7,486 bases of DNA from the NCBI GenBank assembly GCA_021787665.1, contig JAJYLN010000035.1:1-7486 (forward strand). The letters are read 5' to 3'. The notes below the pieces were generated by a model. The model was not told where the DNA came from. It saw only the letters and a program-made list of their open reading frames with translations, and ran no database searches. Positions 1-301 of the stretch are shown here, piece after piece; position 1 is the stretch's first letter, and the number at the start of each line of letters is the position of its first letter. A program made the translations under genes and the position numbers. Source of the DNA: a bacterium (lineage in GTDB: Bacteria > JAMCPX01).

Positions 1-13
1 GTATCAATTTGGT

Positions 14-160
14 TTAGTGGGAATACCTGCTCCCAGCTTCCGCAGGGATGGCACCATAGAAAAAACTACATGTTGAAATAACTGAGAGATGATGGAATAA
101 AGATACAAACCTATAGTGTGTGTGTGTGTGTGTCGAACACACAGCCTTTGACTGCTTCAT
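14..160 (-). CDS. Small ORF (48 aa) with an in-frame AC repeat, unknown function
   Basis: I do not recognise this product. The ORF starts at ATG 160-158 behind an excellent ribosome binding site (AAAGGAGG, 174-167, six bases of spacing) and ends at TAA 16-14. The protein begins MKQSKAVCS, runs through THTHTH encoded by a perfect (AC)9 tract, and continues with an uncharged, somewhat hydrophobic stretch (about residues 16-36, VSLFHHLSVIST). Because the repeat unit is two bases, loss or gain of one unit changes the frame. One alternative frame meets TAG at once after the tract; the other stays open to TGA at 6-4 and would give a different tail (IGLYLYSIISQ and onward). A promoter-like element lies at 301-273. 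It could be a phase-variable small gene, the 5' remnant of a truncated gene, or a chance ORF behind a real start site. The tail overlaps a degenerate repeat at 20-50, which argues for a remnant. Confidence 0.35.
   Translation of the reverse strand: MKQSKAVCSTHTHTHYRFVSLFHHLSVISTCSFFYGAIPAEAGSRYSH
20..50. repeat. Degenerate REP-like inverted repeat
   Basis: The stretch contains CCTGC (26-30) and GCAGG (42-46) around an 11-base loop, flanked by GGAATA on one side and GGATGG on the other. This resembles the widespread bacterial interspersed pattern of the CATTCCCGC...GCGGGAAT type, but with several differences. It is a resemblance by eye only, and one copy in the window cannot prove a repeat family. 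Confidence 0.25.
116..133. repeat. (GT)9 dinucleotide microsatellite
   Basis: Nine perfect GT units on the + strand (AC on the - strand). Perfect dinucleotide runs this long are rare in bacterial chromosomes and are prone to slipped-strand mispairing. The last units also pair with ACACACA at 137-143 across a CGA loop, giving a 7-bp hairpin (127-133 with 137-143). The tract lies 9 codons inside the small leftward ORF, so each slip changes its reading frame. Confidence 0.9.
148..157. repeat. 10-base direct repeat, copy 1 (TTGACTGCTT)
   Basis: TTGACTGCTT here recurs exactly at 264-273. On the - strand both read AAGCAGTCAA. This copy is codons 2-4 of the small ORF; the other overlaps the -10 element of its presumed promoter. 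It may be a chance match, or a duplication bracketing the 106 bases between. Confidence 0.4.
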
Positions 161-166
161 AGAGAG

Positions 167-174
167 CCTCCTTT
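167..174 (-). promoter_or_regulatory. Strong ribosome binding site of the small leftward ORF
   Basis: On the - strand this reads AAAGGAGG, followed by CTCTCT and then ATG (160-158). It is a near-perfect anti-Shine-Dalgarno match with ideal spacing, and the best reason to think that translation really begins at 160. Confidence 0.6.
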
Positions 175-263
175 ATTGTCTATATCGTCCAACCCACTGA
201 AGGGTTCCAACAATCTAAACCAATCTGTCTCAGGAGATAGTCAAAAACGGTGCTGATTCGCTC

Positions 264-273
264 TTGACTGCTT
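264..273. repeat. 10-base direct repeat, copy 2 (TTGACTGCTT)
   Basis: Exact second copy of the decamer at 148-157. It lies at the expected start region of the leftward transcript. Its TTGACT also looks like a -35 hexamer facing right, but no acceptable -10 follows at 16-19 bases. Confidence 0.4.
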
Positions 274-301
274 TTTTACTCACAATACTTAGTATTGTCA
301 A
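273..301 (-). promoter_or_regulatory. Sigma70-type promoter, leftward
   Basis: On the - strand a consensus -35 TTGACA (301-296) is followed after exactly 17 bases by TAAAAA (278-273), which fits the -10 only moderately. Transcription would start near 266 and read the ribosome binding site at 174-167 after a leader of roughly 90 bases. The spacer is occupied almost entirely by the palindrome at 282-298, so the promoter is probably regulated. Confidence 0.5.
282..298. promoter_or_regulatory. Perfect 17-nt palindromic operator candidate
   Basis: ACAATACT-T-AGTATTGT has two perfect 8-base arms around one central base. It fills the spacer of the leftward promoter, the classical position for a dimeric repressor that blocks RNA polymerase. 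A wider inverted pair, CTTGAC (263-268) and GTCAAG (297-302), encloses it. No regulator gene is in the window, so the family of the binding protein is unknown. Confidence 0.55.

Follow-up and report, generated by a model that had tools for sequence, protein, structure and literature searches.

Most known examples of repeat-based phase variation come from host-adapted bacteria. In the Neisseria opa genes, CTCTT repeats are located in the region that encodes the leader peptide, and slipped-strand mispairing switches the reading frame (PMC3960869); in oipA of Helicobacter pylori, CT repeats in the signal-peptide region produce ON and OFF frames (PMC10564699). In Streptococcus gallolyticus, a leader peptide with GCAGA repeats controls a terminator that precedes a separate pilus operon, pil1 (PMC3894217).

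The window analyzed here is an entire contig (C9; 7,486 bases) of a 2.25-Mb genome of an uncultured lineage assembled in 35 contigs, and it probably includes a single copy of a 5' cassette for exported proteins that is dispersed in the genome and phase-variable. Like opa, this family consists of surface protein genes in multiple copies, each of which carries a repeat of its own in the part that encodes the signal peptide; however, Opa proteins comprise one family, whereas here the proteins encoded past the tract (hereinafter, passengers) are not related to each other, the repeat unit is AC and the genes have in common a 5' UTR that is predicted to be structured. The feature shared with oipA is a dinucleotide tract in the signal-peptide region with ON and OFF frames, but OipA resides in the outer membrane of a host-adapted pathogen, in contrast to a dispersed cassette with an AC repeat in an uncultured lineage that has both MutS and MutL. 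As in pil1, the repeat lies in an ORF with its own start, and the repeat number sets the frame; unlike in pil1, the tract is within the gene of the exported protein itself, and no terminator was found in positions 1–460 of the window, the sequence of which starts at base 1. Because the window is the whole contig, the 3' side of the leader gene is cut at base 1. The features of the window copy, from the promoter to the contig edge, are the following.

Positions 273–301, minus strand: putative sigma-70-type promoter, with TTGACA (296–301), 17 nt and TAAAAA (273–278).
Positions 167–239, minus strand: predicted structured 5' UTR, in which an anti-SD segment UCUCCU (232–237) would pair with AGGAGG (167–172), thereby enclosing an inner stem plus an AACCC/GGGUU hairpin.
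Positions 167–174, minus strand: ribosome-binding site AAAGGAGG, 6 nt from the ATG.
Positions 134–160, minus strand: conserved leader start ATGAAGCAGTCAAAGGCTGTGTGTTCG, whose GTGTGT is able to pair with the start of the AC tract.
Positions 116–133, minus strand: exact (AC)9 tract, (GT)9 on the plus strand, corresponding to codons 10–15 of the leader ORF.
Positions 14–160, minus strand: 48-aa ORF MKQSKAVCST(HT)n in the present frame, with the ATG at 160 and the stop at 14–16.
Positions 1–115, minus strand: tail after the tract, which differs from the signal peptide of the family, is identical in contig C2 and reaches the contig edge.

The initial annotation pointed out a perfect (AC)9 tract nine codons after an ATG with a strong ribosome-binding site and read this arrangement as a possible phase-variable small gene. 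The tract, the ribosome-binding site and all three frame outcomes had been read correctly: with n mod 3 = 0, the present state, the product is the 48-aa peptide; with n mod 3 = 2, there is a stop directly after the tract; and with n mod 3 = 1, the frame runs for ~51 codons. The tract is also, as had been suggested, much longer than chance would produce, with ~3e-5 (AC)9 starts and ~0.15 (AC)6 starts expected in the 2.25-Mb genome under a first-order Markov model on the composition of the window. The GTGTGT/ACACAC hairpin after the ATG is no more stable than its counterparts in shuffled sequences.

Positions 4–310 of the window are one copy of a dispersed 5' cassette. Comparison of positions 1–460 with the source genome (G000) yielded matches in eleven places. 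The leader MKQSKxVC(ST)(HT)n with an AC tract is present in contigs C9 (9 units), C2 (6), C7 (7), C17 (11) and C23 (7), and relatives of this leader that lack the tract were identified at a second site in C17, in C33 and in C6. All five (AC)6+ tracts of this genome are in family leaders, at the same position. The sample of the phylum consisted of nine genomes from one family and four genera; (AC)6+ tracts occur in three of these, namely, the source genome (5 of 5 in the family), its genus relative G001 (JAMCVD01, deposited as a Deltaproteobacteria MAG; 3 of 3) and G002 (JAJYJX01; 1 of 2), and 9 of the 10 are located in the family. Repeat number varies in the related genomes from 5 to 12 units at the same leader position. 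The remaining (AC)6 tract of G002 (L109) lies in a diadenylate-cyclase-like gene and was rejected as a chance occurrence, and the weak leader matches L031 and L033 were likewise discarded as chance. A search of viral contigs with the leader 23-mer retrieved no match.

In most copies, the sequence downstream of the tract specifies first a signal peptide (LCAVLGLVAGLLLFSNALYA in C23), then an exported protein; in C144 of G002, the signal peptide has a lipobox-like SSC. Searches of the passengers against Pfam and NCBIfam produced propeller/PQQ, BNR-like, Big_13 and PepSY matches or nothing, and in these databases no passenger belonged to the Neisseria Opa or Helicobacter Hop outer-membrane protein family. 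The C17 passenger (L097:622-3483; 954 codons, in the OFF state) ends with a Gly-rich linker, a Cys, a hydrophobic segment and a basic tail, an arrangement that resembles a surface sorting signal; a CGPT...H region is suggestive of a cysteine peptidase, with no Pfam or NCBIfam match. Contigs C2, C9, C17 and C33 of the source genome all end inside family members, C17 and C33 at the same passenger end point, so that the copy number is probably under-counted.

The window copy itself is atypical. Its tail, from the tract to base 1, bears no relation to the signal peptide of the family, and its only relative is the duplicate in C2 (n = 6): searches of the source genome, 60 relatives, phages and plasmids with positions 1–115 found nothing else, and no exact 26-mer of the tail occurs in viral contigs. 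The aldehyde dehydrogenase gene at 448–1941 adjoins the cassette in the window; in the relatives, what lies upstream of this gene is either another gene or unrelated sequence, and the cassette is absent; judged from these sequences, the place is lineage-specific. The window copy and its C2 twin are most likely orphan leaders because, up to the contig edge, none of the frames leads into a signal peptide or passenger, and they would presumably remain orphans beyond that edge. A further leader of the orphan type is present in C48b of G001, where every frame stops within 22 codons and within 9 codons after the tract.

Two other readings of the window copy have to be weighed. The tail could be an insertion, brought in by a mobile element or a rearrangement, with the gene continuing off the contig into a passenger. 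The C2 copy ends within 3 bases of the end point of C9 in the identical tail, as assemblies tend to do at an unresolved repeat; however, all three frames stop before the edge, which means that a passenger would require a start of its own or a restart, and the tail is found on no other contig of the bin. We consider such an insertion unlikely. An IS or MITE origin of the tail was also examined and rejected, as there is no terminal repeat beyond short matches at the chance level. The other reading, that of the initial annotation, takes the window copy to be a small gene that is live and phase-variable, with a functional 48-aa or 51-codon product. The copies of the tail with n = 9 and n = 6 share one frame, and the 48-aa peptide shows, on inspection, a hydrophobic stretch plus an AEA-GS end, which together could be taken for a signal peptide. 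Nevertheless, two copies fall in one frame with a chance of 1 in 3, and, apart from the window, the tail occurs in a near-identical duplicate alone, so that the frame lacks independent conservation; the peptide has no family match, and beyond that duplicate none of the tail frames has a relative in the genomes searched; and the orphan leader in C48b stops in all frames. All frames of the window copy end within 51 codons, whereas the products elsewhere are large exported proteins. This reading is thus improbable, and an orphan leader that belongs to a family of exported-protein genes remains the preferred interpretation.

The behavior of the frames was traced at the seven loci in which the tract precedes a passenger. 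For n mod 3 = 0, 1 and 2, the numbers of codons to the first stop after the tract are 16, 1053 and 7 in C23; 938, 7 and 10 in C17; 95, 8 and 15 in C7; 747, 18 and 7 in G001 C78; 18, 720 and 5 in G002 C144; 6, 10 and open to the contig end in G001 C112; and open to the contig end, 0 and 10 in G001 C19. Each locus thus has a single open class of three, and the other two classes stop at 0–18 codons. Two of the seven loci are ON (C23, n = 7; G001 C19, n = 12), and five are OFF (C17, n = 11; C7, n = 7; G001 C112, n = 7; G001 C78, n = 5; G002 C144, n = 12). By comparison, all seven scored members with no tract or an interrupted one (C6, the second C17 site, G001 C48a, G003 C18, G004 C15, C53 and C73) are in frame through the signal peptide; C33 was left out of the scoring because its ORF is disrupted further on. 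The difference in ON/OFF state between tract-containing and tractless members gives a Fisher p = 0.02, for small counts and related members.

It could be argued that the tract reflects neutral microsatellite drift in a His-Thr-rich n-region, with the OFF copies being pseudogenes or assembly errors. Dinucleotide slippage is kept in check by mismatch repair. The source genome has intact MutS and MutL, so such slippage should be slow; this counts against rapid switching and is in line with drift, as is the presence of short or broken passengers in C7, C33 and C6. However, three of the OFF loci keep stop-free frames of 938 (C17), 747 (G001 C78) and 720 (G002 C144) codons. Moreover, the latter two encode orthologous proteins, both OFF, with 63% amino acid identity and a dN/dS of 0.30, which indicates that these orthologs are constrained despite being out of frame with the ATG. 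Together with the consistently in-frame state of the tractless members, these observations make neutral drift quite unlikely.

Three observations point to contingency loci. A non-triplet repeat far above chance expectation is located near the 5' end of the gene; a single repeat class opens a passenger ORF at the seven family loci, although not in the window copy; and repeat number differs between near-identical copies. Between the window (9 units) and C2 (6 units), there are 3 mismatches along ~265 bases and, in addition, small gaps, and G001 C112 (7 units) differs from C78 (5 units) by 8 mismatches in ~200 bases; these are differences between paralogs, not strains, and the lengths come from assemblies and may carry errors. 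The contingency-locus arrangement, as proposed initially, is therefore well supported by comparison for the cassette family, through tract lengths, frames and constrained OFF ORFs, and switching would be its likely consequence; for the window copy, it is poorly supported.

Finally, a role of the tract as a leader-peptide attenuator acting on another gene downstream, the arrangement of S. gallolyticus pil1, is very unlikely: orphan-type copies have short ORFs in every frame, and prepilin-like genes follow a similar tract in a Clostridia family, but in other members the tract is inside the passenger ORF itself, and no terminator-like site was found in the part of the window noted above.

The Clostridia leaders merit a separate description. 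Several MAGs (L052, L057, L059, L060 and L063-L066; also L053, L054 and L069) encode short ORFs of the form MK...HTHTHTH, with (AC)8-14 and a ribosome-binding site; these often read MK...SLEAVHTHTH, and sometimes there are two per genome. In 8 of the 8 cases with enough downstream sequence, L053 excluded, a prepilin-like gene (G[IV][TSN]LIxL) starts 169–347 nt after the leader ATG; after the L053 leader, there is none within 900 bases. These leaders look like another repeat-leader system, independent of the first and akin to that of S. gallolyticus pil1.

The part of the cassette upstream of the leader is shared by the family as well. TTGACA or a one-base variant is found 132–176 nt upstream of the ATG in 16 of 16 copies, and all 16 aligned copies have GGAGG or a closely similar sequence; between TTGACA and the ATG, each copy contains an ACCTC-like segment, then a hairpin, then the GGAGG site. 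The -10 element of the putative promoter in the window is weak, and this promoter is absent from the list produced by a generic promoter scan. A perfect palindrome, ACAATACT-A-AGTATTGT at 282–298, overlaps the -35 hexamer in the window and was not seen in other copies.

In the minimum-energy folds of all 15 UTRs tested, the anti-SD segment is paired with the SD, wholly or in part. Shuffle z-scores range from +0.7 to -4.5, with 12 of the 15 at -1.9 or lower and weak values in three copies, including that of the window (-0.96). A covariance model detected the element in seven of the nine genomes, and most matches were upstream of ORFs with a signal peptide or lipoprotein signal. In the alignment to this model, standard pairs occupy 88% of cells, compared to at most 59% when the partners are slid, although the structure was set by hand and the alignment fitted to it, so that pair counts lean towards it. 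Four of the five hairpin pairs have changed on both sides, that is, in a compensatory manner; in the SD stem, positions are mostly invariant or show one-sided changes. RNAalifold predicted no consensus fold from either the MAFFT or the model-based alignment. Given this result and the fitted alignment, the evidence of pairing is moderate, and we regard the ~75-nt element as predicted to hide the ribosome-binding site. Rfam contained no gathering-level match and no plausible weak match to the UTR. The upstream part of the UTR also occurs at G000:C35:11307-11395 (L006, L099), followed by a nadE-like gene, and at G000:C8:115334-115369 (L095), followed by a lipoprotein-like gene with NHL-like repeats; thus, the RNA element or its promoter may be used more widely than the leader family.

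In the proposed scheme, the cassette would consist of a promoter, a folding 5' UTR and a leader start with (AC)n in the n-region of a signal peptide. In the UTR, a CCUCC-like segment would cover the GGAGG ribosome-binding site; the tract would read His-Thr and, outside the orphans, be followed by the hydrophobic signal peptide and the exported protein. Replication slippage, the simplest mechanism for the frame changes, would add or remove AC units in living cells. With a single repeat class of three in frame, the genes would be switched ON and OFF independently of each other, and the UTR would probably add a common layer of regulation.

The tract itself apparently has a precursor. In G003 and G004, the n-region reads VWHTNT, VRHTHSHT, VFHTQ or VFRTQT, followed by the same kind of hydrophobic segment. 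The non-repetitive HTQT, HTNT or HTHS in these relatives suggests that the tract probably grew from such a motif, and we infer its expansion from a His/Thr motif in two genera. A more far-reaching scenario, offered tentatively, is that a phase-variable secretion cassette, comprising the RNA that hides the ribosome-binding site, the leader start and an AC switch grown from HTxT, may spread as a unit and become joined to exported proteins of unrelated kinds through recombination at or close to the tract, the window copy having lost or never gained a passenger.

We found no paper on the cassette in one open-access library, and the shared RNA-plus-leader cassette on unrelated passengers appears to be new, within an already known class of mechanisms. 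The 5' UTR common to these genes, which lacks a match in Rfam, is a candidate for a regulatory RNA and lies upstream of genes for exported proteins across the family. In this uncultured lineage, large exported-protein genes appear to carry one common dinucleotide switch, and the tractless relatives show a likely route to it, from HTQT, HTNT or HTHS to (HT)n.
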